From Parapedobacter luteus (lineage in GTDB: Bacteria > Bacteroidota > Bacteroidia > Sphingobacteriales > Sphingobacteriaceae), in NCBI RefSeq assembly GCF_900168055.1, contig NZ_FUYS01000003.1:434001-498000 (forward strand): a stretch of DNA of 64,000 bases, given 5' to 3'. Positions 30,101 through 64,000 of this stretch are shown here, piece by piece (positions within the stretch are counted from its first letter, which is position 1; every line of letters starts with the position of its first letter). The position numbers and the translations under genes were made by a program. The notes below the pieces were generated by a model. The model had not been told where the DNA came from. It was given only the letters and a program-made list of their open reading frames with translations, and ran no database searches.

Positions 30101-30146
30101 CAAATATAGTCTTTCGTTCCAGCTCATGAAACCCCTGTTTTCGGGG
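30101..30146 (-). promoter_or_regulatory. Palindromic operator plus -7 box (site 1)
   Basis: CCCTGTTTTCGGGG (30133-30146, centre 30139.5) lies 31.5 bp from the first base of TATATTTG (30108 to 30101, reverse strand). It drives the lipoprotein-DUF4836 operon. Confidence 0.65.
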
Positions 30147-30510
30147 ATGTTTTATTATCGTCTTCGATGCGATGTACCGTTGGCAGCCTACTTCAAGCAT
30201 ACGATTGGCGTAGGTCTACCTTACCCGAAATTTAGCTAAACAAGTATATTAGCATGAATATAAGTTGCATTTTCTTTTTAATATAGTAGATTAACAACTG
30301 AGCAAACTCCGAACGAACACCGATAAAATCCGAGCAAAAGGCAAGAAATGTGGAAGCAAGAGGGAGGAAAGAGGTACCGCAGGCGGAATTTGGTGTGGGC
30401 ACGGCTGCCGAACCCCGTGTTAAATGCGGTTGCCCTGCCGCTTCCACCGTGTGACATTTACATATTTACATATTTTGCTTATTTTGCAACCCATAATTGC
30501 AAAAAGGCCT
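30147..30510. other. Divergent intergenic gap before the first sensor kinase
   Basis: No gene supported. Near the right end, TATTTTGC (30471-30478) and TTATTTTG (30479-30486) are imperfect -7 boxes for the kinase. A half-site CCCTG at 30433-30437 lies at the expected distance, but its other half is absent. Confidence 0.4.
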
Positions 30511-32577: not shown

Positions 32578-33169
32578 TGGCCGATGCCAGGTTTTTGACC
32601 TCAAACTTTTCCATCAGGTTCTTGCGGTGGCTTTCTACGGTATGCGGACTGATAAACAGTACCGCGGCGATCTCCTGCGTGGTCAGTCCTTTGGCCGCCT
32701 GGTGGAGGATCTCTTTTTCCCGGCGGGTGACCTTGGGTACGCTCTTCAGCCCCTCCGTGGTTTTCCGCTTCATGATTTCGGCCGACTGCGAGCACAGGAA
32801 GCGCCGGCCGTTGATGACGGTACGGATGCCGTCGACGATTTCCTCCCCCACCGCATTTTTCTGAATATAGCCGTCGGCGCCTTCCTGAAACATGCTATTG
32901 ATTACCGCGTATTCATTATGCACGCTGAGCGCGATAATCCGCGTGGCCGGCGACAGCGCCTTTACTTTCCGGACCAGGTCGATGCCGTTGATATCCGGCA
33001 GGTTGATGTCAAGCAGCAGCACCGCGGGAGGTTCCGATCCAATGGCTTCCAGCGTCGCCGCGGCGTTGGCAAAGCATCCGCTGACCTGAAAGCCGTCGGC
33101 TTCGGAAAGTACATTTTTGAGCCCTTCCAACACCAGCGGATGATCATCTGTAATGAAAATGGATACCAT
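32540..33169 (-). CDS. NarL/LuxR-type response regulator
   Basis: 209 residues. The receiver domain has the acidic pair D8/D9, phospho-acceptor D54 (LLLDINLPDINGIDL) and a Lys in GYIQKNAVG. The C-terminal LuxR-type helix-turn-helix is VTRREKEILHQAAKGLTTQE, IAAVLFISPHTVESHRKNLM. It is the only response regulator in the window and sits beside a HisKA_3 kinase, its natural partner class. NarL-family proteins bind inverted heptamer repeats, so it is the prime candidate to bind the CCCTGAA/TTCAGGG palindromes found through this region. That link is inference. Confidence 0.93.
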   Translation of the reverse strand: MVSIFITDDHPLVLEGLKNVLSEADGFQVSGCFANAAATLEAIGSEPPAVLLLDINLPDINGIDLVRKVKALSPATRIIALSVHNEYAVINSMFQEGADGYIQKNAVGEEIVDGIRTVINGRRFLCSQSAEIMKRKTTEGLKSVPKVTRREKEILHQAAKGLTTQEIAAVLFISPHTVESHRKNLMEKFEVKNLASAIKLAMEYGLIQA

Positions 33170-35014: not shown

Positions 35015-35059
35015 CAAAAATACCGACAAAACCGGCGACTGCCCTCACTGAAATCAGGG
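35015..35059 (-). promoter_or_regulatory. Palindromic operator plus -7 box (site 2)
   Basis: On the reverse strand CCCTGATTTCAGTG (35059 to 35046, centre 35052.5) precedes TATTTTTG (35022 to 35015) by 30.5 bp, one base less than elsewhere. It serves the DUF3298-like gene. Confidence 0.55.
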
Positions 35060-35080
35060 ATTTTCAACCGTTAAAAATAC

Positions 35081-35126
35081 CCCTGATTTCCACTATTTTT
35101 TTCCCTGCCGGGCCGCACTAACTTTG
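35081..35126 (+). promoter_or_regulatory. Palindromic operator plus -7 box (site 3)
   Basis: CCCTGATTTCCACT (35081-35094, right half degenerate, centre 35087.5) is 31.5 bp before TAACTTTG (35119-35126). The box ends four bases before the ATG at 35131, predicting a leaderless mRNA. Confidence 0.55.
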
Positions 35127-35130
35127 CGTC

Positions 35131-36654
35131 ATGCGAAATGGCTGTGCACATCCGATTGCCCTGACGCTGGCTGCCGTATTGAGCACGTCGGCCAGCGCCT
35201 GTATGGCGCCCCCTGTGCAACCGCCCAGTGGACAACGCACTGATACAATGAAACATTATCTTTACCTGGCAGCCGATGGCCGGTATGGCTATGCCGACGA
35301 ACAGATGAACGTCGTCATTCCCCCTTCGTTCCGCTCCGCCGGAACGTTTACCTCCACCGGTTTCGCCGTAGTGGAAGATGAGCAACTGCGTTATGGCGTA
35401 ATTGATAAGTCCGGCGAGCTGGTTATCCCCTTCCGGTACAGAAACATTTACTTGCGAGTGGCGGGTAACCGTACGCTCGCCCGGACGGAACGGACCTATA
35501 CCAATCGGCTCCGGTTTTGGGAGTGGCGTTTCCTGCCGGGGTTTTCCATTACCGGTGGCTCATCGGATAGCCGGTTGTTTGATACCGAGGTTAAACGCGC
35601 TCACGTGAAAATCACCGTACTGGAAACGAATCAGACCATTTATTCACAACGCGTACCAGCGGCAAGCAGTTATGGCCAGCAGTTTGCTATCAGGCCGCTG
35701 GACAAGCTACACTTCCTGCAAGGGAACAGGCTTTTTAAGCTCACCGACCGGAAGGTAAAGCGCTTGGCGCGGCATATTTTTGACGAGGTAGATGGCGGAC
35801 TGCTCCTGCAGCAGCGGGGAAACGGCTTCCGGTTGATTGACCGCGAGGGGAAACCGGCTTCCGGCACGCGGTATAGACAGGCCGACAGCCTGCACACCGC
35901 TATCAACGGCTTGCCACTTTCCATTGCCGTAAGCAGCAATCGATACGATGATGCGTGCCGTGCCATGGTGCTTGCAGACGACGAAGGACACCAGTATATC
36001 TTTCCCGATTTCAGCAAAGCATTTCCCGCAAGGATAGACGCAGCAGCCGTTCATGGCGTCGCCGCCGACACCGTACTCCGTACGGCTCGACTGATCAGCG
36101 GGATGCCCGGCACAGACCGCTTCATGCTGCGGTGGTTCAATCGGCAGGCATCCTGGTTCGAACACACCATGGTCGATACGGCGGGCCACTGGCACATGGA
36201 CCCGCCGCTTGACAATAAATTCACCGTGGTAATCCCTTCGGGAGATATACGCTGGCCTCCCGCGGGGCACATCATCCGCGATGAGGCCGTGGAAACCGGT
36301 TGGCGAATTGTCGCTTACCGCAACATAGCAGACGAGCTATATGAGGTGACCATCAAACGCGACAGTACGGAACGCATGGGCGTTTGGGATGCCGGGGCGG
36401 GGAACTGGCGCTGGAAACCTGAGCACCATTACATCCGCTGCCTGAATCTGCGCCAGGGCTATTGGACTTTTAAGCCCGGCAAAGACAGCCTCTACGGCTT
36501 GTACCATTTACCGTCGGGGCGCGTCGTCATTCCGCCGAAATACCACGACATGTCGGCCGATGGCACGGTATCTTATTACGATGAAAAGCTCGGTTATACC
36601 CGGTTTTATGTAAATTGGCAGACGCAACAGGAATTCCGGGAGAAAAGCAACTGA
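35131..36654 (+). CDS. WG-repeat lipoprotein
   Basis: 507 residues with a lipoprotein signal (SASAC lipobox). WG-type repeats at the N-terminus include LAADGRYGYADEQMNVVIPP and LRYGVIDKSGELVIPFRY; a further one lies near the C-terminus (DSLYGLYHLPSGRVVIPPKY). The middle is more divergent. WG repeats (PF14903 type) form beta-structured arrays of unknown role. It begins an operon with the DUF3142-like gene 1 bp downstream, then a large lipoprotein and a sensor kinase. Confidence 0.8.
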   Translation: MRNGCAHPIALTLAAVLSTSASACMAPPVQPPSGQRTDTMKHYLYLAADGRYGYADEQMNVVIPPSFRSAGTFTSTGFAVVEDEQLRYGVIDKSGELVIPFRYRNIYLRVAGNRTLARTERTYTNRLRFWEWRFLPGFSITGGSSDSRLFDTEVKRAHVKITVLETNQTIYSQRVPAASSYGQQFAIRPLDKLHFLQGNRLFKLTDRKVKRLARHIFDEVDGGLLLQQRGNGFRLIDREGKPASGTRYRQADSLHTAINGLPLSIAVSSNRYDDACRAMVLADDEGHQYIFPDFSKAFPARIDAAAVHGVAADTVLRTARLISGMPGTDRFMLRWFNRQASWFEHTMVDTAGHWHMDPPLDNKFTVVIPSGDIRWPPAGHIIRDEAVETGWRIVAYRNIADELYEVTIKRDSTERMGVWDAGAGNWRWKPEHHYIRCLNLRQGYWTFKPGKDSLYGLYHLPSGRVVIPPKYHDMSADGTVSYYDEKLGYTRFYVNWQTQQEFREKSN

Positions 36655-40190: not shown

Positions 40191-42404
40191 ATGAGAAGCA
40201 TCGTCTTATCATTCACCTGTTCGTTGGTATGCTGCCTGGCCGTGTTGGTTTGCCGTGCACAGGACGCATTGGATGCCGTGGCCAAGGCCTATCAGCAGGC
40301 CGGCTATGAAAACGGCGAGAAATTCCTGAAAGCCGGCCCCTATGTCCGCGCATTGTTTTTCAACGAACGCCGGGACGAAGCGATAGCCGTTCTGGAAGAA
40401 AACATCCGCTTGGCGCGGAAAAGGCAAGACGGCAAATATGCCGCGTACCTATACGGACTACGGGCACTCAACACGTTCATACTGGGCGATTCGGCACAGG
40501 CTGCCCGGTACATCGACAGCGCATCGGTTTTCGCGGCCCGCACGGCCGACCGCAAAATTAAGGGCTACGTGCACTATTGCCGGGGGTGGTTGCTGGCGCG
40601 CGCCGGCCGCGAGGTGGATGCCGTAACCACCTTTGTGGAGGGCCTCCGCCTGCTCGAAAACACCGGCGCCCACACCTACCAGCGTTCGATCTACAGCGAA
40701 CTATATGCGATATACGCCAATTGGCGGGCTACCGACCTTCAAACGAAGTATGCCTACCTGAATCTGGGCCTGGCCGTAAAATGGAAAGAACCATCGGCCC
40801 TGTTCGATGCACACATGCGCATGGGGCACCTGTATGAGACGCTTACCTCGGAAACCGGAAACCCATCGTTTGCCGACAGTGCAGTGCGCTATTACCGGAG
40901 CGCGATAGCCCTCTTCGAGGATAACCCGTCAACGATGGGAACCTCGCCCACCGATTTGGCGCATGTAGCCATTAACCTGGCAAACCTGCACCTCAACAAC
41001 GCCGATACGGCTGACCGGCGGCAGGCAGAAAAGTATGCGCGCAAGGCGATTGCAATCGCCGACCAGTATGGGCATACCCAATTCAAAGCCGCTGGCTACG
41101 GTATCCTGTCTGCCCTGGCACGGAGCAGCCATCAGCCTGAAAATGCAAAAACCTACCTGCTGGCCGCTCTGGCTGCCGCTTCGCAGGAGACGGCCATGAA
41201 TACCGAAACGCTTCCCCTTATTTTCCGGAACCTTGCCGAGCTGTCGGAGGAGCAGCAGGAGCATACCGAAGCGCTGCATTATTACAAGCAGTACGTAGCC
41301 GCCGCCGAGGATCGATTCGATGCAGAGAAGTTGGAATTGTCTGCACGGCTGGAAGCCCAATACGAGCGCGCCAAGCAACAACAGGCACTGGGGCAACTGC
41401 GCCTGGAGTCCGCGCAAAAGGAACAGCAACTCAAGCTGATGGATGCTCGTGCTGCCGAACAGCGGCAAGCGATTGAAGTGATGAAACTCAACGAAGAAAA
41501 CCAGCGCCAGCAACTGGCGTTTGCTAACCTCCAAAATCAGCAGAAGGAGCAGGAGCTCGCAGCCGTGCAACGCGAAGTGGCGCTCAAGTCGCGCATCAGC
41601 CAGACCTACATTATCCTCTTTGCTGTTGCATTGTTCATGATGGCGCTGCTGTTCTACGCTTACCGGCAGCGCTCAAAGACGTTGACCCAGCAAAGGCATC
41701 TTCATCGGCTGGAAATGGAACAGGTCCAGCAACAACACGAAATATCCAACCTTACCGCCATGCTCAGCGGACAGGAGCAGGAGCGTTCGCGGTTGGCGCG
41801 CGACCTACATGATGGCCTTGGCGGACTGCTTTCGGGGACTAAGATTGAGCTTTCCGCCGTATTTTCCCGCGTGAACGACGCGGCCGCCCGGGAAAAAGTC
41901 ACCCGCTCACTGAACCAGCTCGATGCGGCGGTCAATGAGCTCCGCCGTGTGGCGCACAACCTCATGCCCGAGCTGCTTTTGAAATATGGACTCACGGAGG
42001 CCATCCGCGAATACTGTAACCGGATGTCTCACGGCGACCTGGAGGTTGCCGCCGAGATTGTCAGCTACACCGACAGCCTCGACACCAATCGCCAGGTGGT
42101 CGTTTACCGCATCATCCAGGAGCTGGTAAACAACGCCATGAAGCATGCCGAGGCCAAGCACATCCTGATTCAGCTGGCACAGGCTGACGGCACCCTATAC
42201 CTGACCGTAGAAGATGACGGCAAGGGGTTCGACGTCGCCACGCTGGATGGGCGGAAGTCGGCCGGCATACACAATGTGCAATCGCGGCTGGATTACCTGA
42301 AGGGGCACCTTAACCTCATCAGCGAGCCAGGCATGGGTACCACAGTGGAGATTGAATTTCCCTTGGCACAACCGGCCAAGATTATCCAGGCGAGCGGATC
42401 GTGA
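40191..42404 (+). CDS. Sensor histidine kinase with periplasmic TPR region (HisKA_3), second copy
   Basis: 737 residues. Signal peptide (LVCCLAVLVCRAQ), TPR-like region (about 25-340), a long Gln/Glu-rich coiled coil (about 375-470), membrane helix (YIILFAVALFMMALLFYAY), HisKA_3 motif RSRLARDLHDGLGGLLSG with His about residue 540, and a HATPase domain (VYRIIQELVNNAMKHAEAKH, TVEDDGKGFD). It is a clear paralogue of the kinase at 30511 but lacks an adjacent regulator gene. It is the fourth gene of the operon starting at 35131, so the regulon may feed back on its own sensing. Confidence 0.92.
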   Translation: MRSIVLSFTCSLVCCLAVLVCRAQDALDAVAKAYQQAGYENGEKFLKAGPYVRALFFNERRDEAIAVLEENIRLARKRQDGKYAAYLYGLRALNTFILGDSAQAARYIDSASVFAARTADRKIKGYVHYCRGWLLARAGREVDAVTTFVEGLRLLENTGAHTYQRSIYSELYAIYANWRATDLQTKYAYLNLGLAVKWKEPSALFDAHMRMGHLYETLTSETGNPSFADSAVRYYRSAIALFEDNPSTMGTSPTDLAHVAINLANLHLNNADTADRRQAEKYARKAIAIADQYGHTQFKAAGYGILSALARSSHQPENAKTYLLAALAAASQETAMNTETLPLIFRNLAELSEEQQEHTEALHYYKQYVAAAEDRFDAEKLELSARLEAQYERAKQQQALGQLRLESAQKEQQLKLMDARAAEQRQAIEVMKLNEENQRQQLAFANLQNQQKEQELAAVQREVALKSRISQTYIILFAVALFMMALLFYAYRQRSKTLTQQRHLHRLEMEQVQQQHEISNLTAMLSGQEQERSRLARDLHDGLGGLLSGTKIELSAVFSRVNDAAAREKVTRSLNQLDAAVNELRRVAHNLMPELLLKYGLTEAIREYCNRMSHGDLEVAAEIVSYTDSLDTNRQVVVYRIIQELVNNAMKHAEAKHILIQLAQADGTLYLTVEDDGKGFDVATLDGRKSAGIHNVQSRLDYLKGHLNLISEPGMGTTVEIEFPLAQPAKIIQASGS

Positions 42405-42434
42405 ACGGAAAACCTGAGCGACTTCGCTAAAATT

Positions 42435-42480
42435 CCCTTTTTTCAGGGATTTATTACCTGCACCATAGCCTTGATATTTG
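42435..42480 (+). promoter_or_regulatory. Palindromic operator plus -7 box (site 4)
   Basis: CCCTTTTTTCAGGG (42435-42448, centre 42441.5) lies 31.5 bp before GATATTTG (42473-42480). ATTTATT follows the operator, as at site 6. Confidence 0.6.
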
Positions 42481-47666: not shown

Positions 47667-47712
47667 CAAAACAACACAAAATACCGTTCGGATAAAACCC
47701 CCGTTTTCAGGG
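47667..47712 (-). promoter_or_regulatory. Palindromic operator plus -7 box (site 5)
   Basis: CCCCGTTTTCAGGG (47699-47712, centre 47705.5) lies 31.5 bp from TTGTTTTG (47674 to 47667, reverse strand), which matches TAnnTTTG at seven of eight positions. A second box-like TATTTTG is 10 bp closer. Confidence 0.55.
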
Positions 47713-47841
47713 ATTTTCTGTCAGGCAGCGATGGGTACGTTTAAAGGACGATAAGACTGAGGTTAATTTTCCGCACGTTTCCCGGGGGGTGTAGAACTCT
47801 CTCCGTAACTCACTGATAGTATATCGTTTATAAGCATCACT

Positions 47842-48507: not shown

Positions 48508-48512
48508 CCCTA

Positions 48513-50309: not shown

Positions 50310-50387
50310 TAAAATAATGCAAAAAAGATCCGGCCCAAAACCCCTGAATTCAGGGATTTATTCCCCCACGCAAAAAGGTAAACTTTG
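50310..50387. promoter_or_regulatory. Perfect palindromic operator CCCTGAATTCAGGG (site 6)
   Basis: The 14-bp palindrome is at 50342-50355 (centre 50348.5). On the forward strand AAACTTTG (50380-50387) starts 31.5 bp away. On the reverse strand TTATTTTA (50317 to 50310) starts 31.5 bp away but is a weak box. It probably serves the gene at 50430 and perhaps the gene at 50226. Confidence 0.65.
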
Positions 50388-50429: not shown

Positions 50430-51179
50430 ATGATATCCATTATCCTATTGTCAACGGCTGCCATTTACACACCGCAGCTGACGGACTCCATACCCGATAA
50501 ATACAGCTGGCATCCCGATGGGCTCATCATCTATGCAGCCCCTTCGCTAACCGCCGATTCGATCAATCGCGCCGGTTATGGGGAATTTATCCTCGTCGAG
50601 GAGTTATGGGATGGTGAGACCGTCTACGTGACCCGCTACCAACACGATGAAGATAAGTGGATTTCAGACGAATACCTGAAACTGTACCAGCATGCATCCC
50701 ATTGGCTACGGGTAAAGCACGGCGGCCGGCCGGGTTTCATCTTGGACACGTACTTGGCCCCCATTCCACCGCCGGATACCTCGCATGCGTCCGGCTTGAT
50801 CTGGGAGGAATATCTTAAAAGCCTGTCAATGGTAACGTTCGAGGAATCCGAGGGCCAAACCGAAGACTTCTGTGCAAGAAACACCCTGCATTTTGCGAAC
50901 GGCATCATATACACCTATACAGATTTCGGGCCCTGTGAGCAATGCGGTCATGTCCAAAAGCAGCTGTACCTCCCGCTCACCAGTAAAGCCGAGGCCATGA
51001 TGATGGGGTTGCATTTCTTCCGCTACTATGGTCTTTTCTCGGGAGCGAACAGCGTGTTGCTCAAGCGCGAGGGTGAAGCCGTGGCATTAGAAGGATATAT
51101 GGAGTCCGGCCAAGTAACGATCATTTCGTTTAGCAAGCAACAAGATGGCGTGTGCCTGATTGAAGACAATTACTTGTAA
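50430..51179 (+). CDS. Exported SH3-like protein
   Basis: 249 residues with a short hydrophobic N-terminus (MISIILLSTAAIYTPQ) that may be a signal peptide. Two SH3-like segments are apparent: PDGLIIYAAPSLTADSINRA with YGEFILVEELWDGETVYVTR, and SHWLRVKHGGRPGFILDTYL. The C-terminal part has CEQCGHVQKQLYLPL. SH3b-like folds often bind peptidoglycan or act as scaffold modules, but I cannot assign a role. Expressed from site 6 with a leader of about 40 nt. Confidence 0.65.
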   Translation: MISIILLSTAAIYTPQLTDSIPDKYSWHPDGLIIYAAPSLTADSINRAGYGEFILVEELWDGETVYVTRYQHDEDKWISDEYLKLYQHASHWLRVKHGGRPGFILDTYLAPIPPPDTSHASGLIWEEYLKSLSMVTFEESEGQTEDFCARNTLHFANGIIYTYTDFGPCEQCGHVQKQLYLPLTSKAEAMMMGLHFFRYYGLFSGANSVLLKREGEAVALEGYMESGQVTIISFSKQQDGVCLIEDNYL

Positions 51180-51489: not shown

Positions 51490-52101
51490 TTAAGCACTGC
51501 AATCGGTAGTGACGCGGTCAATCAATGTTAAATACCATTTATCGGCGATCAGCGTAAGGTTAAAAATTAACTCCTCATCTTCCTGGCCTGTGAGTACAAT
51601 CCGTCGGCTCTGCTGCGCAAGGTCGCGGAAACGTGCCAGTTCAGTCTCCGGAATGGAGTCCCCGCGATACTTGACGAGATTCTGCGCCGTTTGAGCGAGC
51701 TTATCGTCGCTCCGTGTGGTATCGGCAAAAAGTCCGGTTTTATCCCATACCATCTCGCCGCAGTCATAAACAGGAAGTTCCGCGTAGTGAACCGAATCGG
51801 GTACGGCAACCATATCCGGATAACCCAAATATGCCGGCACCGGTTGCTCAAAATCAATCGAATCGACGAGCACATACTCATCAAAAACACCGATCCGGTA
51901 AATCACCGCGAGTCCGGTTTCCTCCGATATCAACCCGTTGAGCGTAGCGCCATCCCGGTCATGAAACGCGTGGATAACCTTCATGACGGTCGCCTCAAAA
52001 TGATCCGGTTTGACGGGGGAATTACAAGAAGAAAACGACGCAGGCACCACCAAGGCAACGGCACATAAAGCGCTCCTTGCTTTTAATTGCAGGTGTATCA
52101 C
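51490..52101 (-). CDS. Hypothetical lipoprotein
   Basis: 203 residues from GTG 52101, which overlaps the upstream stop codon in GTGA (4 nt), so translation is coupled to the WG-repeat gene. A lipobox lies at ASFSSC. The mature part has TVMKVIHAFHDRDGATLNGL and an ending rich in Asp and Arg; no domain is recognised. A longer in-frame ATG at 52185 lies within the upstream gene and would put a non-signal stretch in front. Confidence 0.75.
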   Translation of the reverse strand: MIHLQLKARSALCAVALVVPASFSSCNSPVKPDHFEATVMKVIHAFHDRDGATLNGLISEETGLAVIYRIGVFDEYVLVDSIDFEQPVPAYLGYPDMVAVPDSVHYAELPVYDCGEMVWDKTGLFADTTRSDDKLAQTAQNLVKYRGDSIPETELARFRDLAQQSRRIVLTGQEDEELIFNLTLIADKWYLTLIDRVTTDCSA

Positions 52102-54587
52102 CACAAGCCAGTATTTACGGTAAACGTTCCCGAGGGTACGCCCTCCACCTGCAACACCTCGCCCTTGTCTGTGTAATATTGCCATTCTCCGTTTTTATAA
52201 CACAACATAGGAAAGGTAATTTCCGTTCCCTTTTCGTATCGGTTCAGCAATAGGTTGTCGAATTCCACCGGAAGGATAATTTGTCCGCTGCGATCGGCAA
52301 TGCCGAATTTGTAACCAACCGAAAGCAAAAAATATGCCCCGTTGTTGAACACCTCCACGCCGTCATATTTCGGAGGGACCAGCACCTGCCCGGTACTGTC
52401 GGCGATACCGGCCCGTAGTTCACCTGTATTTTCCTCCACCCTCCGGATGACCAGGTGCCGCCCGGTAAAATAATCCATCGCCATCAAAAACTCATTCGGA
52501 GCGGTATACACTTCGCTGGAAAGCGGTCGGCCGTCGCGGCCGAGGAACTGATAGGCTACATATCCCACTTGGGAGCGCCAGTCGGACGCCGGAAAATACC
52601 TGGCGCCGACGGCGATGCCGTGCGCGTTGAAGTCCAGTACCCGATCGTACACCGGTTCCGTCACCCAATTGCCTGCCGTATCCAGGAGACCATATCGGCC
52701 ATCAACCCGCACCCAGCCAAGGCCGAACGGCGAAAACCGCTCCAGCAGGGCATCTTCCGTCCTGTCGTCATACGCGTAAGCAAAGGCAAATTTGCTGTTT
52801 GGTACCGACTTCCCGAGCACCGGGCTGTACAGCTGTGCGCGCACGGAGTCGTCCGAAATCAACACCAAACCGGGGTACCTGACCGATTGGGCATACCGGG
52901 CAGGGAGTTTGGTTACCACTCCGCGCCGGCCATCGATGAGGATGGCTGGGCCACCGTTCCGGGCGCCGGATAACAAGGCAAACGTCCCGCCGACGCTATC
53001 GTACACCGTGTATTCGGCAGGCACAGCCTCCTGCCCGTCCATCCTGCGTATACCATATCGATAGTCGCCGTAATCGCCGTTTACCGTCAGCACAATCGGT
53101 CCCGAGCCGGGCAGTTTACGCAACTGATCGAATGCAGGCGGGATAATCTCCCGCTGCAACTCCGCATCGTACAGGCCCTGCTTACCGGCCTTGGTCACGA
53201 CAAAATACCGCAAGGACGAAGTGTCCCATAGCGACCACGATGCATAGCCGAGCGGTAGCAGCTCCCTGCCCGTGAAATCGTATACGGCCTGCTCGCCCTG
53301 ATGCTCGCCGACCACCACAGCATCGGGGCCGTCGTACGTAAGCGAAGCCAGGTCGATTTCGTGAAATTTCGGGGAAACCACTTGGCCGGTTTCCGCAAAG
53401 TACAGGCCGTACAGCGCCTTTTGCCGGGTCTTGAAGATGGTAATTCCCTTGCTGCCCGACGAATAGAAATAATCGTTCACGTGGGTTACTGCGGTATACG
53501 ATGGCGCCAGCAGTTCACGGCCCGTCGTATCATAGAGTCCCCAGCGACCGTCTTTCGCAAGGGCAAAGTAATCATCGTATACATTCACGTCGTCCCATTG
53601 CGGCGGAATCAGCACGCCTTTACCCCGTTGGTAGACACCTTTGCGCCCACCCTTCTCCACAATGGCATAGGGACCATGATACCCGCGGAAATCATTGGCA
53701 TTGGGCACGGTGATGCGCTCGTATTCGGCAGGCAGTATTTCATTGGCATCGTGATCAATCAATCCGTATCGGCCGTTTACCTGGACAACCAACTCGCCGC
53801 CGGCGAGTATTTCAAGGGGATCCCGGCCGTCAGCAGAAAACTCCCTGCCCGTCGGGATATGCACCACTACCGGGCGGCCGTTTTTCGAAAACGAGCGCAC
53901 CCATTCGTCACTCCGCATGCCCCAATGCTCGTGCTCGTATGCAAAGGGCACCCGTACTTGGCCGTCGAAACCCATGATGCCCCATTTTCCATCCCGCTGC
54001 GCATACACATAATCCGACTTCCGGCCGCATCCCCCGCAATAGTCAAAACCATCGTACTTCGCCGGAATGGCCAGCTGCGCGGCCTCCCGATCATAAACAC
54101 CCCACTTTGTTCCGGCTTTGACATCGAAATACCGGCCATCGAGGTAACCCACGTCATCAAAAAAAGGCAGCAGCATTCCCTCTTCCCTACTGTACAAGGA
54201 GTGCTTGCCGTCTTTCATCACCTTCCAGAACGCGCCGAACCGGGTATCGATCTGCTGATATTCCGGGGGTAACACCCAACCGCCCGATCGGGCCAGTACC
54301 CCATATCGGCCATCCTTGGTTACGACGCCGAGTGGTTGAGCGGCGGTATCGGCACTGCCGATATCTTCGATGTAACTATCAAACAACCGCTTGCCGGCGC
54401 GGTCGATGTAAAACGTACGGTCGCCAGCGGTTATCTGCGCAAAGCCATGGCCGTTGAAGCGCTCCGCCCGCGCCGATGCCCCCTCTTGGGCATTGGCCGG
54501 CATCGTTGCGCCGCCCAGTGTCGCCGCCAAGACGCCATACCCTACAATAGCGGATCTAAAATTGTTTTTCAGCATCACCTGTAACAT
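52098..54587 (-). CDS. WG-repeat exported protein
   Basis: 829 residues with a signal peptide ending MPANAQ. More than ten WG-type units run through the protein, such as KWGVYDREAAQLAIPAKYDG, KWGIMGFDGQVRVPFAYEHE, RYGLIDHDANEILPAEYERI and RWGLYDTTGRELLAPSYTAV. Each is about 25-40 residues and ends in a proline-tyrosine step. Such arrays are often exported; their partners are unknown. ATG 54575 is an alternative start. It follows the small membrane protein gene after 4 bp and precedes the lipoprotein gene with a 4-nt overlap. Confidence 0.88.
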   Translation of the reverse strand: MLQVMLKNNFRSAIVGYGVLAATLGGATMPANAQEGASARAERFNGHGFAQITAGDRTFYIDRAGKRLFDSYIEDIGSADTAAQPLGVVTKDGRYGVLARSGGWVLPPEYQQIDTRFGAFWKVMKDGKHSLYSREEGMLLPFFDDVGYLDGRYFDVKAGTKWGVYDREAAQLAIPAKYDGFDYCGGCGRKSDYVYAQRDGKWGIMGFDGQVRVPFAYEHEHWGMRSDEWVRSFSKNGRPVVVHIPTGREFSADGRDPLEILAGGELVVQVNGRYGLIDHDANEILPAEYERITVPNANDFRGYHGPYAIVEKGGRKGVYQRGKGVLIPPQWDDVNVYDDYFALAKDGRWGLYDTTGRELLAPSYTAVTHVNDYFYSSGSKGITIFKTRQKALYGLYFAETGQVVSPKFHEIDLASLTYDGPDAVVVGEHQGEQAVYDFTGRELLPLGYASWSLWDTSSLRYFVVTKAGKQGLYDAELQREIIPPAFDQLRKLPGSGPIVLTVNGDYGDYRYGIRRMDGQEAVPAEYTVYDSVGGTFALLSGARNGGPAILIDGRRGVVTKLPARYAQSVRYPGLVLISDDSVRAQLYSPVLGKSVPNSKFAFAYAYDDRTEDALLERFSPFGLGWVRVDGRYGLLDTAGNWVTEPVYDRVLDFNAHGIAVGARYFPASDWRSQVGYVAYQFLGRDGRPLSSEVYTAPNEFLMAMDYFTGRHLVIRRVEENTGELRAGIADSTGQVLVPPKYDGVEVFNNGAYFLLSVGYKFGIADRSGQIILPVEFDNLLLNRYEKGTEITFPMLCYKNGEWQYYTDKGEVLQVEGVPSGTFTVNTGLW

Positions 54588-55010: not shown

Positions 55011-55056
55011 CAAAACTAACGGCCAACGCCATGTGCTGCAATCCCTGAAAACCGGG
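55011..55056 (-). promoter_or_regulatory. Palindromic operator plus -7 box (site 7)
   Basis: CCCTGAAAACCGGG (55043-55056, centre 55049.5) is exactly 31.5 bp from TAGTTTTG (55018 to 55011, reverse strand). It lies just before the start of the operon at 54984. Confidence 0.65.
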
Positions 55057-55067
55057 CTTTTCACCTT

Positions 55068-56549: not shown

Positions 56550-58949
56550 TTAATACCCAAGCTTATCCCCCGCCGACACCGGCAGTTCCGTACCGTCGGC
56601 CTGCACATAGGTCCACTGCCCACCCACCTTCACCCGTGCCGGAAAATAGCCCGCATGGGAGTCATTCAGCCGGACCTCCTCATAGCGGGGCGCCACGAGC
56701 ACTTTCCCCGTGCTGCTCGCGAAGCCGGACTTTCCGTCCTTTTCCACGCGAAGAAGTGAATCACTTATTAAGCGGATATGATCGTATTCCGTCGGCAATA
56801 CCGTAGCACCGTCAAGGCCCACCAATCCCGCTTTGCCATTCAGGCGGACCTGAAACAAGGCAGGCTGCTTCAGGTAATCCACCGCTTCGTACGCTGCTTC
56901 CAATATCACCCGGCCACGCATATCGATCACCCCTACATTATCGTTTCGCCAGATTTTCCGCATTTCGCCGTTATAGATCTTGTCCATACCATGGTATTCA
57001 AGCGGCAATACCACGTTCCCGGCGGAGTCGATGATACCGATGAGCGCTTTACCATCCACGCTTCTCGATGCGGCGGCGAGGCCACCGAAGAAGTCATCCA
57101 CGAAGTCAAACCCCTCAAAACGGACTTCCTTACCCTGCCGGTCCACAAACAGGTTCTTTTCAGCACCCACCTTGAGCAGCCCACCTTGGAAAGGCCGAAC
57201 CTGTAGTAACCGGCTGATGCTATCGGGCATCAGTTGCTTGCTCAGCCGGTAGGGGGAGAAATCCCATTGCGGATGATGGTAAAGCTGTTTGCCATCGGCG
57301 TCAAACAGGGTGGTCGACCAATGGCTATCGTTCCGCGTTGTTACCACATAACGGTCCGTATCCACCGCATGGACAAGCAGCCTTTTGGTTGGCGGAATTA
57401 ACGGGCTGCCGTCCGCCCGGAAATAAGCAGATACCGGATCGGCTGTGGCGTTGCCATTTCCCCGCCCGCTCGTCGCCTTGATGAAGCAACCCAACTGCCA
57501 TTCCAGTTGCTCATATTCCGGTGGCAACAGGAGGTGCTTCCGCTCCAGGTCATACAAACCGATCGATTCCCCATCGGGAATGCGAATGATCGAAGCGGGG
57601 CCGGTACCCGAAACGTTTGCGCTGTAACCGCCCATGGGAAACCGGTAAGAAACCGGTAGCAGTTCTTTCCCCTGCAAGTCGGCCAATCCGTATCGTTCAC
57701 CCGCAACGACATAGAGGCAACTCCGCGCTCCCGTGTTACCAAACTGTATACCGTCGTATTCCATCGGGAGCAGTTTCTTGCCAGCGCGGTTGAACAAATT
57801 GTATTTGCCTGCTGCCCGAGCCATGAAATACAGGTCGCCGCCCGTTGTTTCTTTATCGTTTCGCTGGCCAGATGACTTACTCGGGCTACCCGGAATCATG
57901 GGAGGCCCGTCGATGATTACCGAACCGGATATGGCCGGTCTGCCACGGTCGTCGAGGATTTTGATATCGCTATATTGGCAAGGCACGATCAGTTGGCCAT
58001 CGTCGGCAAGCACACCCTTTTTTCCATTTTGGGTCACGATACACCGCCCATCCACCCAATCTGCCGCATCGTCATATATCGGCAGAATCCGCACGCTCCC
58101 GTCGGCGGCTAGCCATCCGGTTTTTCCGCCGCGTTCTATCCGCACCAGTGGGCCGTCGGCGCTCATCCGGTCATATTGCTCCATCGTCAGCCGCTTGCCG
58201 AGCGTATCCAGCAAGAAAATCTCATTCCCCTGCTGGCCTAAAAGTAGCGGCCCGCCATCCAGCCGTATACCCATCAGATCATCATAAACAGCCGGCATCA
58301 CTTCCCGCTTTCCATCAGGCGATCGGAGTCCCTTCTTGCCGGCGGCGGTTACCTCCAGGTAGCCGTCCGGCACATAACAACGGGTCAGATCGTCATAGGT
58401 AAACGGCAGTACCTCCCCGCCGTCGGTCAACGACAGCAACCCCCATTTTCCCGCTTTCTGGGCAGCCAATACGTGTGCATTGATGGGGCGGAGGTCGTCA
58501 TATACCGGTTCGGCAACTGTTTTGCCCAATGTATCGATAGCTCCCACCTTACCATCAAGCTGCACGATAGCCAGAAAATAATGATAGCTTTTATCCGCGC
58601 CCGGATGACGCTTATCGGCATATTCATAACGGATATCATCATAAATGAAATCCGCAATCACGTCCCCTTTGCTATTTATGGCACCGTATGCCCCATCGGT
58701 TACCGCGATGCACACCGGGGCACCGTATCGCACAGGCTTATCCACCACCACCTTTCCCGAGCGGTGCAGGTACCGGGATTTTCCGGCCACCCGTATTTCC
58801 GCAAAGTCGCCCTTGAACGGGCCAAGCGCATCGGCATGGAGCGTATCAGTCGGCAGATGGTGAATGGCGGGTGTAGCCGACAAAGGGGCTGATAAAAAGA
58901 CCACACTGCCAAGCAGTGTAACAGCGATGAAGTAAACGAATCGGAACAT
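56550..58949 (-). CDS. WG-repeat exported protein
   Basis: 799 residues with a signal peptide (FIAVTLLGSVVFLSAPLSAT). Many WG-type units follow, for example GAYGAINSKGDVIADFIYDD, KVGAIDTLGKTVAEPVYDDL, KWGLLSLTDGGEVLPFTYDD and KTGWLAADGSVRILPIYDDA. It shares the repeat style of the proteins at 52098 and 61783 and is probably their paralogue. It heads the operon that continues into the 55068 gene. Confidence 0.88.
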   Translation of the reverse strand: MFRFVYFIAVTLLGSVVFLSAPLSATPAIHHLPTDTLHADALGPFKGDFAEIRVAGKSRYLHRSGKVVVDKPVRYGAPVCIAVTDGAYGAINSKGDVIADFIYDDIRYEYADKRHPGADKSYHYFLAIVQLDGKVGAIDTLGKTVAEPVYDDLRPINAHVLAAQKAGKWGLLSLTDGGEVLPFTYDDLTRCYVPDGYLEVTAAGKKGLRSPDGKREVMPAVYDDLMGIRLDGGPLLLGQQGNEIFLLDTLGKRLTMEQYDRMSADGPLVRIERGGKTGWLAADGSVRILPIYDDAADWVDGRCIVTQNGKKGVLADDGQLIVPCQYSDIKILDDRGRPAISGSVIIDGPPMIPGSPSKSSGQRNDKETTGGDLYFMARAAGKYNLFNRAGKKLLPMEYDGIQFGNTGARSCLYVVAGERYGLADLQGKELLPVSYRFPMGGYSANVSGTGPASIIRIPDGESIGLYDLERKHLLLPPEYEQLEWQLGCFIKATSGRGNGNATADPVSAYFRADGSPLIPPTKRLLVHAVDTDRYVVTTRNDSHWSTTLFDADGKQLYHHPQWDFSPYRLSKQLMPDSISRLLQVRPFQGGLLKVGAEKNLFVDRQGKEVRFEGFDFVDDFFGGLAAASRSVDGKALIGIIDSAGNVVLPLEYHGMDKIYNGEMRKIWRNDNVGVIDMRGRVILEAAYEAVDYLKQPALFQVRLNGKAGLVGLDGATVLPTEYDHIRLISDSLLRVEKDGKSGFASSTGKVLVAPRYEEVRLNDSHAGYFPARVKVGGQWTYVQADGTELPVSAGDKLGY

Positions 58950-58973: not shown

Positions 58974-59051
58974 CAAAAATAGCCTTTGTTGTTCCGGGTA
59001 TAAATACCGGATTTCAGGGGTTTTAAATGCCGAGCCTGACGACTAACTTTG
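58974..59051. promoter_or_regulatory. Shared palindromic operator between two divergent promoters (site 8)
   Basis: ACCGGATTTCAGGG (59006-59019, centre 59012.5) lies 31.5 bp from both -7 boxes: TATTTTTG (58981 to 58974, reverse) for the WG-repeat gene at 58949 and TAACTTTG (59044-59051, forward) for the gene at 59068. Confidence 0.7.
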
Positions 59052-59067
59052 TTTACAAAGCCAACGG

Positions 59068-59478
59068 ATGAATACATATACATCACCTGATCAGAAACAT
59101 CGCCTGACGTTTACGTACGAAGGTGAGATCCGTTTTGGACCTGAGTTTTACACCGTTAAGCTAGACGGTATGCCCATTTCCGAAAGAATATTTGGGGATT
59201 ACTGCCTGTGGCAGCCAAATTCCCGCATGGTAGCCTTGCAAGAATGGCTCAAAACGGGGGCTCACTTAGGTGTCGTAACAGCGCTGACCTTAATCGATCT
59301 TCAGGAAATGAAATTGGCGCAAATACCAAAGGTGGATATGAGACGTATTTTTTCGGTCAGATTTGAAAATGAATCGATTCGTTATCGGGAAAAACAGTTG
59401 TGGACAACAGTGGAACGTGAAATCAAGCTGGATGACATTCATGACTGGCAAAACTTAACTGATGAGACCGGCACATGA
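59068..59478 (+). CDS. Hypothetical cytoplasmic-type protein
   Basis: 136 residues with no signal peptide. It contains FTYEGEIRFGPEFYTVKLDG and LWQPNSRMVALQEWLKTGAH, then IDLQEMKLAQIPKVDMRR, suggesting a small beta-propeller blade or immunity-type fold. I cannot name a family. The leader is about 12 nt. Its TGA overlaps an ATG at 59475 in the order ATGA. Confidence 0.6.
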   Translation: MNTYTSPDQKHRLTFTYEGEIRFGPEFYTVKLDGMPISERIFGDYCLWQPNSRMVALQEWLKTGAHLGVVTALTLIDLQEMKLAQIPKVDMRRIFSVRFENESIRYREKQLWTTVEREIKLDDIHDWQNLTDETGT

Positions 59479-59618
59479 TAGATCATTTAACAGCACCATG
59501 GACATGCGGCGACAGGTTCATCTACCGAAAAAATCACGGATTTCGGCTATTGCCTGGGTATTGTGTCGTTAATAGCTTTAAAAAAGTGATTGCCATGACG
59601 ATGAAAGAAAATATCCCG

Positions 59619-60131
59619 ATGAAATCCAACTTTTTTCACACGCTGTTTATAGGTGCCTTAATCGTCTGTGTCGGCATCTCCCCCGTTCGCGCGCAACGTG
59701 CAACCGGTTTTATGCCCCTCAATAGGCTGGGCGTATCGTATCAGAAAGCCGTTGGCGTAGACCTTGGTTTCGGCGCATACAATCTCCTCTTTGGTCGCCA
59801 GCTGACGCATTTCTTCGATGTTTCGCTTGGCTCCGAAGCTGTCTTCGCTAATCAGTTGATATTAGTCCCTAAGGTGAACGCTGATATCGGGTTCGACATT
59901 ATAGAGGCGCTGACCTTCGGTGGCGGAATTGATGCGGGATGGCATACCGATTTCTCACAAGGTACTTGGCGATTTTCGCCGAAGGCCGGTTTTACGGCCG
60001 GTTCGGTAATCCGTTTGTATTACGCCCGTCACCTGTACGGTAATCCACAGCAGTTCGCTCATATCGGGCAGCACCGCATATCGCTGGAAGTAAACATTGC
60101 CGCCTTCCATAATATGAAAATAGGTTTTTAA
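59619..60131 (+). CDS. Small exported protein, paralogue of the gene at 43453
   Basis: 170 residues from MKSNFFHTLFIGALIVCVGI, a signal peptide ending VRAQ. The mature part repeats the plan of the 43453 protein: FMPLNRLGVSYQKAVGVDLG, TFGGGIDAGWHTDFSQGTWR, FSPKAGFTAGSVIRLYYARH and the ending LEVNIAAFHNMKIGF. The reading frame extends back to ATG 59475, which overlaps the upstream stop, but those 48 extra residues do not look coding. ATG 59601 is a third option. It may be a small outer-membrane barrel. Confidence 0.65.
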   Translation: MKSNFFHTLFIGALIVCVGISPVRAQRATGFMPLNRLGVSYQKAVGVDLGFGAYNLLFGRQLTHFFDVSLGSEAVFANQLILVPKVNADIGFDIIEALTFGGGIDAGWHTDFSQGTWRFSPKAGFTAGSVIRLYYARHLYGNPQQFAHIGQHRISLEVNIAAFHNMKIGF

Positions 60132-60141
60132 TATCACTGTT

Positions 60142-60432
60142 ATGAGCAATGCTTATCCATCGAAAAAAAAGCAAGTACTTACTACCTGGTCGTGGTTGTT
60201 CCTGGCATTGGCCGTTCTTTCGACGCTCTCGTGGACGTTCATGGACGTCCATCCGGATATTGGTATTTCGTTGGCCGTCCTAGCGGCAGCCATCGCAGCC
60301 ATCCTCGGTGGAATCGGTGTCGCTACGAAACGAACGGTCGGCGGCGTGGTATGCATCGTGGTGTCGGTACTGGTCATCGCCTTTCACGTGATCTTGATCA
60401 TCGCGCTTCGCAACATGTGCGTTATTTGTTAG
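60142..60432 (+). CDS. Small membrane protein
   Basis: 96 residues with three hydrophobic helices (WSWLFLALAVLSTLSWTFM, ISLAVLAAAIAAILGGIGVA, VCIVVSVLVIAFHVILIIAL). It follows the exported paralogue by 10 bp in the same direction and is probably in the same operon. No function is recognised. It converges with the gene ending at 60438, 5 bp away. Confidence 0.65.
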   Translation: MSNAYPSKKKQVLTTWSWLFLALAVLSTLSWTFMDVHPDIGISLAVLAAAIAAILGGIGVATKRTVGGVVCIVVSVLVIAFHVILIIALRNMCVIC

Positions 60433-60437
60433 TATAG

Positions 60438-61028
60438 TTACTGCACGTACATATCCGCGCCCATTGTTTCGAGTCTGGTTTCCTTTGCTTTCAGCTGCTC
60501 ATACCGTTTCAGACCACGCGCCGCCTGCTTTGCATGGTCAGACGCATCCAATGCCCCCGCTTGCACCCGGATTTCCTCACGTGTGCTGATCCGTCTCAAC
60601 AACCGGTTTTTAAGCCTTTCGGCATTCTTCTGCGTGGGATCATACGGAACCAGATCGACGCGGGCGCGGGTCAGCCCTGACGTGACCCGCGTGTTGACCA
60701 GGTATACCCGGCCCGCTTCCAGGTCTGCGTCGATAAAACTCATGTTTTCGGATTTACCCCAAAGGACGTGGCTGCCGGGATCGCATTCATAGACCAGGTA
60801 ACTGCCCGGCCCGATTTTACCGAGGTATTGGCCGCCGTCGTAATACTGAAACTGGATAACCGGCGCTTCCAATGGCGGGCGCGTAAAAATCACCAATGCC
60901 TTATCCGGCGCTGGGGCGGGCAGCTCGAAAGCGATAGGTGTATCGTCTTCTTCACTATCCTGCGCGACCACGTGGCGCTGGAACAGCAGCAACACGGCAA
61001 ATAGCGTGATAATAGCTATGCGATTCAT
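60438..61028 (-). CDS. DUF2846-like exported protein
   Basis: 196 residues with a signal peptide (IAIITLFAVLLLFQRHVVAQ). KALVIFTRPPLEAPVIQFQY, GKIGPGSYLVYECDPGSHVL and LEAGRVYLVNTRV fit the DUF2846 pattern of envelope proteins of unknown role. The C-terminal extension (about 150-196) is helical and ends in TRLETMGADMYVQ. It follows the lipoprotein gene of 61674 after 13 bp. Confidence 0.7.
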   Translation of the reverse strand: MNRIAIITLFAVLLLFQRHVVAQDSEEDDTPIAFELPAPAPDKALVIFTRPPLEAPVIQFQYYDGGQYLGKIGPGSYLVYECDPGSHVLWGKSENMSFIDADLEAGRVYLVNTRVTSGLTRARVDLVPYDPTQKNAERLKNRLLRRISTREEIRVQAGALDASDHAKQAARGLKRYEQLKAKETRLETMGADMYVQ

Positions 61029-61041
61029 GGTGTAATTATAA

Positions 61042-61674
61042 TTAGTTAAACAATCTACTGACCGGTCCCGCTTTTTGCATCCATTGGCTGACTTTGCCCT
61101 GCACGCCCGATTGCGCAGCGTGGGGTGCCACACGCTCAAAGGTGCCGCCATAGCTGCCCTTCACGGACTCGCCATTGTTCATCATCAGGTCGAATTCAAT
61201 CTTATAGTTGTTTCCACTCCCGGCCACTTTGACGGTGCCCCCTGAAATGAAGGCGATTTCATCGGCATCCGCACTGCTTATCCGCATGTTCAAGATAAGG
61301 TATCCGTCGTCGAAATAATGTTTGCCTGTTACATCTTCTGCCTCGTAGTCGGCGAAACTAAAAATGCCCTGCTGGAACGTTTGCTCACTTGCCGAGTACA
61401 GGTCTAAAAACAGGTGTACCGGTACATTGTCGTCGTCATCCTCGGCAAATTGAAACAAGTAAAATTCCTGGTTGTAATGCGACCCATCGAAACCGTAGTC
61501 GCTATAGCCAGCGTCGTTAAGGCGGTAGGTGTGCCCCTTATATACGAGGCTGTTGGTTGGGTTGATGTCCGGTTCAATTCCTTCATCGTCGTCTTTTGAA
61601 CATCCGCCGACACCCAGCGCTGCCACGATAAGGAGCAGCGTGATCTTGCGGCTTTGTTTCCATAGCTGTTGCAT
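61042..61674 (-). CDS. Hypothetical lipoprotein
   Basis: 210 residues. The lipobox is LGVGGC, followed by SKDDDEGIEPD, a typical acidic linker. The mature domain has beta-strands such as HTYRLNDAGYSDYGFDGSHY and SGNNYKIEFDLMMNNGESVK, common in Bacteroidota surface lipoproteins of unknown function. It is driven by the reverse arm of site 9. Confidence 0.7.
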   Translation of the reverse strand: MQQLWKQSRKITLLLIVAALGVGGCSKDDDEGIEPDINPTNSLVYKGHTYRLNDAGYSDYGFDGSHYNQEFYLFQFAEDDDDNVPVHLFLDLYSASEQTFQQGIFSFADYEAEDVTGKHYFDDGYLILNMRISSADADEIAFISGGTVKVAGSGNNYKIEFDLMMNNGESVKGSYGGTFERVAPHAAQSGVQGKVSQWMQKAGPVSRLFN

Positions 61675-61698
61675 GATTTTTCATTATTGGTACTACGA

Positions 61699-61776
61699 CA
61701 AAGGTCGTTACCTCGTTCAAATGAAAAAATCCCTGAAAACATGGATTTATCTGCCGAGCTTCGCCGCTTAATTTTG
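61699..61776. promoter_or_regulatory. Shared palindromic operator between two divergent promoters (site 9)
   Basis: CCCTGAAAACATGG (61731-61744, centre 61737.5) lies 31.5 bp from both -7 boxes: GACCTTTG (61706 to 61699, reverse) for the lipoprotein at 61674 and TAATTTTG (61769-61776, forward) for the WG-repeat gene at 61783. Confidence 0.7.
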
Positions 61777-61782
61777 AAAACG

Positions 61783-64000
61783 ATGACAAGCAACTCGTCC
61801 ATACTTCCGTTAATCGGCCTGGCAGCTGTCCTATGGTCGTCATGCACCACAAAACGGCTGGCTACCGCTATAGAAATCCAACCCGCCATATTGGACTATA
61901 TCGGCGATCGTTCCTGCGGTTGGCAGCGCATCCGTCAGGACACGCGCTGGGGTTATATCCACACATCGTCAAAACGGTTCATCACACCACGGTTTGATTG
62001 GGGAGACGATTTCCATGACGGCTTTGCCGTGGTGCAGCGCGGCGGCCGCGCCGGGTTCATTACGTCAACGGGGGGACGTTGGGGACGGCTCAAGTATCAA
62101 CGGGCCGGCCATTTTTCCGATGGGGTAGCCCCGGTAAAAATCCGCGGTAAGTATGGCTACCTGGATGCAAGGCGGAAGTGGGTTGTCCGCCCCCAGTATG
62201 ACCACGCGCTGCCGTTTCAGGAAGGCCGCGCCGTAGTGGCCGATGGGCTGCACTATGGTTTCATCGATCGCACAGGCAACCGGGTAACCCGGTTGGAATA
62301 CGAGGATGCCACGCCATTCCGAAATGGGCTGGCCAGGGTGCGGAAAAACGGACATTTCGGGCTGATCGATACCCATGGCGTGGAGGTGCTGCCATTGGTG
62401 TATACCGCCATTGAACCGCTTGCCGGAGGGGACTATCGGCTCACGGGAAAGGATGGCGTTGGACTGGCCGACGCAAACGGGCGGCTGCTGGTCAATGCGC
62501 GATACCGCCGGGTTCAGCTCCGGGACGACGGGAATTATTCCATCGAGAACCATTTGGGAAAGGTGGGCCTATTCCATCTAAATCAGCGGCGGTTGATTTT
62601 ACCGGTCGTCTTTGACGCCATTTATGACGCCGGTGAAGGGATATACCTCTGCCACCAAAACAACAACCATTATGTATACGCAGACTCCACCGGCCACCTG
62701 TTATATGGATTGGCATTTGAAGATGCCGGCACATTCAGCGAAGGACTCGCAGCCGTTAAAAAAGATGGCAAATGGGGATACATCGATACCGCCGGCCGAT
62801 TGGCGATTCCCTTCCAATTCGATGCCTTTGACAACCGGCATTATGCGCGGATGCGGTTCAGCAGCAACCGGGCCTGGGTACGGAAAGGCGGGATGACCGC
62901 GCTCATCGACCGGTATGGGCATACCGTTGCCTTAACCGACTACCCATCTGCCCTTCCGTTTACCTGCAATCGCGCCTTGGTGGTGGATCAATCCGGTCGC
63001 ATCGGCTACGTAGACACGATGGGAGCGGTACGTATTCCGTTGATGTATACCGGCGGCAGCGCCTTCAATACGTATGGCATCGGCTGGGTAACGAAGTCCC
63101 CTTACGACATACCGTCCTACCACACCATCAACACCGCGGGCGAAATCATCGACAGCCTGGGCTTTCAACCTCCCAAGATTTTTAATGCCCGATACTGGTA
63201 TACCGACCGGCCGAAGCGGTCGCTGCTGGTCGACCGCCGCACAGGGAAGATCACGGATTATCCGTATGATAACATGTACCGATCATCGTATATGCCTGAT
63301 GACCTGTTTCACGCCACCCGGGATCAACTGTCGGGACTGATCGACACTTCCATGGCCGTAGTGATCCCATTGCGTTACCGGACGGTCGAAACGTTTCACC
63401 ACAACCGTGCCCGGGTAGTCAGCGATACCGGCGAAGGGTTTGTGGACCGGCTCGGCCGCGAAATCCTGCCGTTGCATTACGAAAAGTTTTCCTATTTCCG
63501 TTATCCGGTCACCGTGGCCATACGCAATGGCCGGCGCGGCGTGCTGGACACCGCAGGGCGCGTCGTCATACCGCTCGACTACGATGCAGTGGACATCGAC
63601 TATGCGAACAACCGCATCATCGCAACCGACAGCCTCGGCGCGCGGATATTCGACCGGCATGGGTACCTGCTCCATGACCGGCAATACGACAGGGTATCTG
63701 CCTTCCATGCCAACCGCGCCACCGTACGGAAAAACGGAAAAACCGGTGTTGTGGACTACCTCTTCCGGGAGCTGTGTCCACCCATCTACGACCGGATAGG
63801 CCCTTTTAAAGCCGATGGGATGGCCTGGGTGGTCAATGACGGAAAAATCGGATACCTGGATTCAGCCTATCAGGTTTGCATTCCCATCATCTACGATGAC
63901 GGGGACATCTTTATCCACGGCATGGCCAAGGTCAAACTAAACGGCGAGGAGCTATTCGTCGACCGCGCGGGGAAACGGGTTTATCCGGATGAAGCGACTA
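61783..64000 (+). CDS. WG-repeat lipoprotein, 3' end beyond the window
   Basis: At least 739 codons, open to the right edge. ATG 61783 is followed by a lipobox (LWSSC), so this is a lipoprotein. WG-type units include WGYIHTSSKRFITPRFDWG, YGYLDARRKWVVRPQYDHAL, KWGYIDTAGRLAIPFQFDAF and KTGVVDYLFRELCPPIYDRI. It is the fourth WG-repeat gene in the window. The -7 box ends six bases before the ATG, so its leader is nearly absent. The C-terminus is not seen. Confidence 0.85.
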   Translation, partial: MTSNSSILPLIGLAAVLWSSCTTKRLATAIEIQPAILDYIGDRSCGWQRIRQDTRWGYIHTSSKRFITPRFDWGDDFHDGFAVVQRGGRAGFITSTGGRWGRLKYQRAGHFSDGVAPVKIRGKYGYLDARRKWVVRPQYDHALPFQEGRAVVADGLHYGFIDRTGNRVTRLEYEDATPFRNGLARVRKNGHFGLIDTHGVEVLPLVYTAIEPLAGGDYRLTGKDGVGLADANGRLLVNARYRRVQLRDDGNYSIENHLGKVGLFHLNQRRLILPVVFDAIYDAGEGIYLCHQNNNHYVYADSTGHLLYGLAFEDAGTFSEGLAAVKKDGKWGYIDTAGRLAIPFQFDAFDNRHYARMRFSSNRAWVRKGGMTALIDRYGHTVALTDYPSALPFTCNRALVVDQSGRIGYVDTMGAVRIPLMYTGGSAFNTYGIGWVTKSPYDIPSYHTINTAGEIIDSLGFQPPKIFNARYWYTDRPKRSLLVDRRTGKITDYPYDNMYRSSYMPDDLFHATRDQLSGLIDTSMAVVIPLRYRTVETFHHNRARVVSDTGEGFVDRLGREILPLHYEKFSYFRYPVTVAIRNGRRGVLDTAGRVVIPLDYDAVDIDYANNRIIATDSLGARIFDRHGYLLHDRQYDRVSAFHANRATVRKNGKTGVVDYLFRELCPPIYDRIGPFKADGMAWVVNDGKIGYLDSAYQVCIPIIYDDGDIFIHGMAKVKLNGEELFVDRAGKRVYPDEAT

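Follow-up and report, generated by a model that had tools for sequence, protein, structure and literature searches.

Nine copies of one palindrome (about AAAYCCCTGAWWTCAGGGRTTT) are spread over 32 kb of a gene cluster in a 64,000-nucleotide stretch of Parapedobacter luteus DNA (contig NZ_FUYS01000003.1, positions 434,001 to 498,000; hereafter the window), with centres at 30139.5, 35052.5, 35087.5, 42441.5, 47705.5, 50348.5, 55049.5, 59012.5 and 61737.5. Two of them, at 59012.5 and 61737.5, lie midway between divergent promoter boxes. The palindrome is read here, with a probability of about 0.65, as the putative operator of a NarL-family regulator that would act by class II activation, the dimer at each of these two midpoints serving both promoters. 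With its centre about 42.5 bp upstream of the transcription start, a dimer would overlap the −33 region and recruit RNA polymerase; most sites would serve one promoter each, whereas at 59012.5 and 61737.5 one dimer would serve two. Since a palindromic dimer shows the same face both ways, a divergent gap of the right length would need only one site. The predicted start sites in such a gap are about 85 bp apart, which suggests that their occupancy by polymerase is partly exclusive. An earlier sequence-only reading of this DNA had named neither a regulator nor a regulon, and both are proposed here.

The Bacteroidota promoter is summarised as TAnnTTTG at −7 with TTTG near −33 (PMC7366714). Boxes were scored against TAnnTTTG at every offset from the site centre, and distances are given from that centre to the first T of the −7 box; with −7 taken as the centre of the box, a distance of 31.5 bp corresponds to about −42.5 relative to the predicted start. 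The palindromes at 59012.5 and 61737.5 had earlier been placed 31.5 bp from a −7 box on each strand, and this was confirmed, with scores of 6/6 and 6/6 at 59012.5 and of 6/6 (forward) and 5/6 (reverse) at 61737.5. The description of 50348.5 was likewise found to be accurate, with a forward box of 5/6 at 31.5 and a weak reverse box of 4/6 at the same distance. The features of the three gaps are as follows.

59002..59023, no strand: two-sided operator, centre 59012.5, with 6/6 boxes on both sides at 31.5
59044-59051, forward: −7 box TAACTTTG, before 59068 (136 aa), 59475 and 60142
58974..58981, reverse: −7 box TATTTTTG, before the WG-repeat gene 56550-58949
61727..61748, no strand: two-sided operator, centre 61737.5
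61769-61776, forward: −7 box TAATTTTG, before the WG-repeat gene starting at 61783
61699..61706, reverse: −7 box GACCTTTG (5/6), before the gene 61042-61674
50338..50359, no strand: operator, centre 50348.5, with a perfect core
50380..50387, forward: −7 box AAACTTTG (5/6), before 50430-51179
50310..50317, reverse: weak −7 box TTATTTTA (4/6), before the gene starting at 50289

Neither of the first two palindromes is perfect: at 59012.5 and at 61737.5, 2 of the 12 core positions are off. The divergent gaps around them are short (118 and 108 bp, respectively). On the forward strand, the box at 31.5 is the only one in either gap to reach 5/6; the reverse strand of each gap carries one further 5/6 match. 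At these two centres one site was found at the activating distance from both promoters, so that the suggested activation of both divergent genes by one site holds there as geometry; at 50348.5 it is doubtful.

A box of at least 5/6 stands at exactly 31.5 bp on 10 of the 18 site sides, against a background of 0.37% per position, and none of 5000 dinucleotide shuffles of the arms placed boxes on more than four sides at any one offset. The same shuffles gave no two-sided site (4816 times) or one (184 times), compared with the two observed. When 300 whole windows were shuffled and cores with up to three mismatches were accepted, a core with a box of at least 5/6 on one or more sides occurred 0.2 times on average (maximum 2; observed 7), and a two-sided core never (observed 2). 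An activator is well supported by this rigid 31.5-bp spacing, repeated over the cluster sites and seen again in other genera. That the palindrome is instead a repressor operator or an RNA hairpin (terminator) is very unlikely: such a role would suit a palindromic site, and in genome G004 a similar palindrome (C3:221852-221873) lies at or just past the end of the gene of a distant homologue, a terminator-like place, whereas the palindromes here stand upstream of the boxes at one rigid distance and not across box or start.

The spacing also bears on a one-way activator, with each site driving a single promoter and the second box being fortuitous or part of an activator-independent promoter. Seven of the nine window sites do carry a box of at least 5/6 at 31.5 on at most one side, and two-sided boxes elsewhere are not always found between two clear genes. 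The site at G000:C23:162560.5 (L034 1511.5) has perfect boxes on both sides and a gene to the left; its close right side holds only a 98-codon frame of doubtful meaning, and at the two-box site on G007 C15 the right-hand long frame is oriented the other way. The two-sided site at 3288.5 on G007 C20 looks divergent: on its left come a 280-residue gene and, next, the regulator gene, and on its right small forward frames. One-way use is nevertheless considered improbable, since neither set of shuffles reached two two-sided sites and since, for three of the four directions, the strand concerned has no 6/6 box in the gap other than that at 31.5.

The −33 element was looked at as well. The classical promoter pattern TTTG-N(18-20)-TAnnTTTG has no exact match in the cluster and three in the window, all below 8.1 kb. 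Among 54 collected sites (L164 and L191 having been removed as duplicates), the place of the −33 TTTG, 19 bp before the box, falls within the operator edge, and only 4% of them have its final G; this fits promoters that need an activator.

The best candidate for the binder, probably, is the product of a gene within the cluster. It and the two sensor kinases of the cluster are listed here.

32540..33169, reverse: NarL/LuxR-type response regulator, 209 residues, proposed binder (PF00072 and PF00196)
30424..32577, forward: TPR sensor histidine kinase (HisKA_3, HATPase_c)
40191..42404, forward: second sensor kinase (HisKA_3, HATPase_c)

The regulator consists of a receiver domain (PF00072, 3.1e-23) followed by a GerE helix-turn-helix (HTH) domain (PF00196, 1.9e-19), and on comparison with solved proteins NarL (1a04) was the best match (1e-24), with VraR and DesR also near. 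NarL/FixJ-family response regulators, such as NarL, VraR, DesR and DevR, have palindromic targets. The cluster regulator shares the receiver and GerE HTH domains of these four proteins; unlike them it would, if the reading is right, act on Bacteroidota −7 promoters (TAnnTTTG), and its operator sequence is different. The receiver aspartate D54 is invariant in nine of nine aligned sequences, and phosphorylation may be supplied by one or both of the cluster histidine kinases. TPR repeats were called in the 30424 kinase, the first of the two HisKA_3 kinases, whose gene is convergent with that of the regulator. At five other loci the homologous regulator gene directly follows a kinase that has the 40191 kinase as its best match, namely L167 and L168 (Sphingobacterium), L171 (Chryseobacterium), L178 (Elizabethkingia) and L183 (Chitinophaga).

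The regulator and the spaced motif are linked across genomes. Regulator loci from named genomes were the best 80 of 486 relatives. A tree was built by a quick search from 86 regulators (79 of the 80 loci, L218 being left out, together with six relatives and the window's own) and labelled for the motif in flanks of up to about 10 kb on each side, the loci differing in length. In a clade of 37 regulators that includes that of the window (SH-like approximate likelihood ratio test, SH-aLRT, 99), 25 members have the spaced motif, compared with 2 of the 49 regulators outside (Fisher p = 1.4e-10, kinship not corrected for). The motif label changes 14 times on the tree, compared with 23 times in shuffles, none of 500 being as low. 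The 32 closest loci, many of which are from Chryseobacterium and hence not independent, contain 18 perfect boxes at 31.5 and at most three at any other offset between 20.5 and 49.5, whereas the 48 distant loci contain one at 31.5, a count matched or exceeded at several other offsets. Out of 150 genomes, palindrome plus box was found in 14, a count that includes the genome of the window and its near copy G002; the reversed control gave one row. A looser pattern gave 62 rows in 15 chosen genomes and 2 in the control; ten of the 11 named genomes among those 15 had been chosen, out of the 32 close loci, for a known site at the regulator locus (L182 being without). Regulator placement covered eight of the named genomes, G153, G159 and G160 lying outside it, and of the 20 pattern rows in these eight, 10 were no more than 10 kb away from the best homologue (none of the three in G158). 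Among 100 genomes, own included, 10 have a homologue that scores 189 bits or more, a cut-off chosen afterwards; the full pattern was present in 6 of these 10 and in 5 of the 90 others. It is also present in G106, G107 and G124, whose regulator homologues are at 50, 59 and 59% identity, respectively.

Individual loci give a similar picture. At 42441.5, 9 of the 20 spacer bases differ between the window and G002, with palindrome, box and spacing kept. In G044 and Sphingobacterium shayense (loci L134 and L168), as in the window, a homologous operon of the 29393/27454 type (28–40% identity) follows a 31.5-spaced site; in S. shayense its first two genes match 29393 and 27454 at 37 and 28% identity, respectively. 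In both S. prati and S. shayense the regulator gene is followed, after about 30 bp, by a site, which in the latter precedes that operon. In G007 a two-sided site stands before two genes, the second being that of the regulator.

Further observations weigh against the reading as a whole. The missing −33 TTTG proves little alone, because no −33 motif could be identified in Flavobacterium johnsoniae either (PMC7366714). The palindrome taken by itself is unspecific: the 12-mer at up to three mismatches is barely over chance in the window, with 35 matches compared with 25.4 in shuffles (standard deviation 4.4; 2 of 100 shuffles reached the observed count), and the 22-mer at up to three mismatches occurs in 38 of 100 genomes, compared with 10 for the reversed control. 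Intergenic position and box spacing are what set the sites apart from other matches. Apart from 42441.5, conservation in G002 is largely uninformative (99% identity). Directly before the regulator gene of the window there is no site; on that strand the closest one upstream is 35052.5, with three genes between. Twelve of the 37 clade members lack the motif in the flanks examined, including G006, which has an 81% identical homologue and, near it, a site with its box at 30.5. Five of the 11 genomes with the pattern among the 100 (G004, G008, G023, G061 and G074) are without a homologue of at least 189 bits. These last two counts speak for an alternative in which another transcription factor binds the operator and the regulator is just a neighbour or a member of the regulon. 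This alternative is held to be unlikely, given that the linkage tracks the regulator clade through loci of Sphingobacterium, Chryseobacterium, Elizabethkingia, Pedobacter, Dyadobacter and Chitinophaga, and that most neighbour genes in 14 compared loci are unlike those of the window.

In a scan of the window and the 40 kb downstream of it, ten places were within five mismatches of the 22-mer, namely the nine sites and an intragenic one at 19391.5, and none lay in the downstream 40 kb. Genome-wide, a similar 22-mer pattern at up to three mismatches was found at 19 places, of which 7 are cluster sites, and all four places with at most one mismatch belong to the cluster. Palindrome plus box occurs in the whole genome in the cluster and at one other place, on contig C23.

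The LuxR-type HTH domain is common to TraR and NarL-type regulators. On the Agrobacterium Ti plasmid, tra box I between traAFBH and traCDG is described as one box for TraR serving two divergent operons (PMC3907764). As far as that account goes, the likeness to the cluster extends to a palindromic operator of a LuxR-type activator used in two directions and to a class II position, about 45 nt upstream and partly over the −35 element; unlike the candidate response regulator of the cluster, TraR is a quorum-sensing receptor that acts at −35-type promoters through another operator sequence. Eleven divergent pairs in Escherichia coli with a single CRP site are mentioned in PMC3105977, where El-Robh and Busby (2002) is cited; one site again serves both directions, and CRP differs in being a global regulator from an unrelated protein family, whereas the proposed regulon is centred on the cluster. 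The divergent flgA and flgB promoters are also reported to be activated both by FlhD4C2 at a single site (PMC12781870). The divergent single-site layout, compared with these systems, is therefore not new in kind. What the sequence-only reading had called an unusually tidy layout is less unusual than that wording suggests, as single-site divergent control is known from TraR and CRP, and as a midpoint site needs no further explanation once an activator site is palindromic and its spacing fixed. A regulon joining this regulator, this motif and WG-repeat genes was not described in the literature searched on such motifs and regulons, on WG-repeat work and on divergent layouts, a search that lay mostly outside subscription papers and leaves absence unproven. 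The proposal would tie a Bacteroidota regulator clade to a specific operator, a fixed promoter geometry and target genes, which are WG-repeat proteins and others without known function, and the two midpoint sites would be natural test pieces for one activator dimer and two polymerases at Bacteroidota promoters.

The remaining operators of the cluster and the WG-repeat genes are listed below.

30129..30150, no strand: operator 30139.5, with reverse box TATATTTG at 30108-30101, before 29393-30079 and 27454-29391
35042..35063, no strand: operator 35052.5, with reverse box TATTTTTG at 30.5, one base short
35077..35098, no strand: operator 35087.5, degenerate (5 of 22 positions off), with forward box TAACTTTG at 35119-35126, before the WG-repeat gene 35131
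42431..42452, no strand: operator 42441.5, with forward box GATATTTG (5/6)
47695..47716, no strand: operator 47705.5, with reverse box TTGTTTTG at 47674-47667 (5/6)
55039..55060, no strand: operator 55049.5, with reverse box TAGTTTTG at 55018-55011, before 54592 and then the WG-repeat gene 52098
35131..36654, forward: WG-repeat protein (PF14903)
52098..54587, reverse: WG-repeat protein
56550..58949, reverse: WG-repeat protein
61783..64000, forward: WG-repeat protein extending past the window end, its N-terminus resembling a lipoprotein signal by eye

All four large WG-repeat genes stand first or second behind a site, and spaced sites ahead of WG-repeat frames were also found in relatives, on G006 C17, G007 C20, G007 C12 and G106 C1. 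Against such a link, many WG-repeat frames were found without any site, for example all of those in G003, G005 and G044, and a smaller WG-repeat protein of the same genome (about 380 residues, on contig C23) lies about 28 kb from the only pattern site of that contig. Many cluster proteins have no Pfam matches.

A more far-reaching proposal was also considered, namely that a two-component regulon is widespread among the Bacteroidota, that its NarL-type dimer would replace the −33 element at TAnnTTTG promoters with base-exact spacing, and that A-tracts at the operator edge alone would set one-way or two-way activation. It is tentative and, on balance, doubtful. An A-tract at the upstream edge would mark the direction; a site with A-tracts at both of its edges, of which 59012.5, 61737.5 and 50348.5 are examples, would act as a switch in both directions. 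Of 23 one-sided sites, 19 have TTT at 8.5–10.5 outward on the distal (upstream) side and 1 has it on the promoter side; this count covers only loci fetched by protein (L163–L191, L204, L211 and L218), and several of the sites are orthologous ones from Chryseobacterium and not independent. The flanks in the 54-site collection are biased, because many of its relative loci were fetched with a pattern that contained the flanks. The A-tract edge as a mark of direction is retained for this far-reaching proposal only, since it fails at 30139.5, 35087.5 and 42441.5, where TTT is on the promoter side only, by eye.

Some smaller observations concern the promoters and neighbouring genes. At 35052.5 and 35087.5 a divergent pair has a separate operator for each promoter, the two lying 35 bp apart and the box of the first being at 30.5; paired sites 35 bp apart and facing away from each other are likewise found at the Dyadobacter loci L186 and L188. 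By a hand calculation that takes −7 as the box centre, three of the genes driven from the sites (35131, 47662 and 61783) have a likely ATG 1–3 nt past the predicted start site, so that their mRNAs would be leaderless or nearly so; in Bacteroides thetaiotaomicron, 5′ untranslated regions shorter than 10 nt are given as only about 3.7% (PMC7366714). An AbiEii-type toxin gene (PF08843) with a DUF6922/HTH partner (47842-49004) lies inside the cluster to the right of 47705.5, and two small adjoining genes upstream of the regulator gene (33299-33765) are toxin-antitoxin-like by eye. Outside the regulon, a GntR/UTRA regulator is found beside a BCCT-family transporter (23217-26105).

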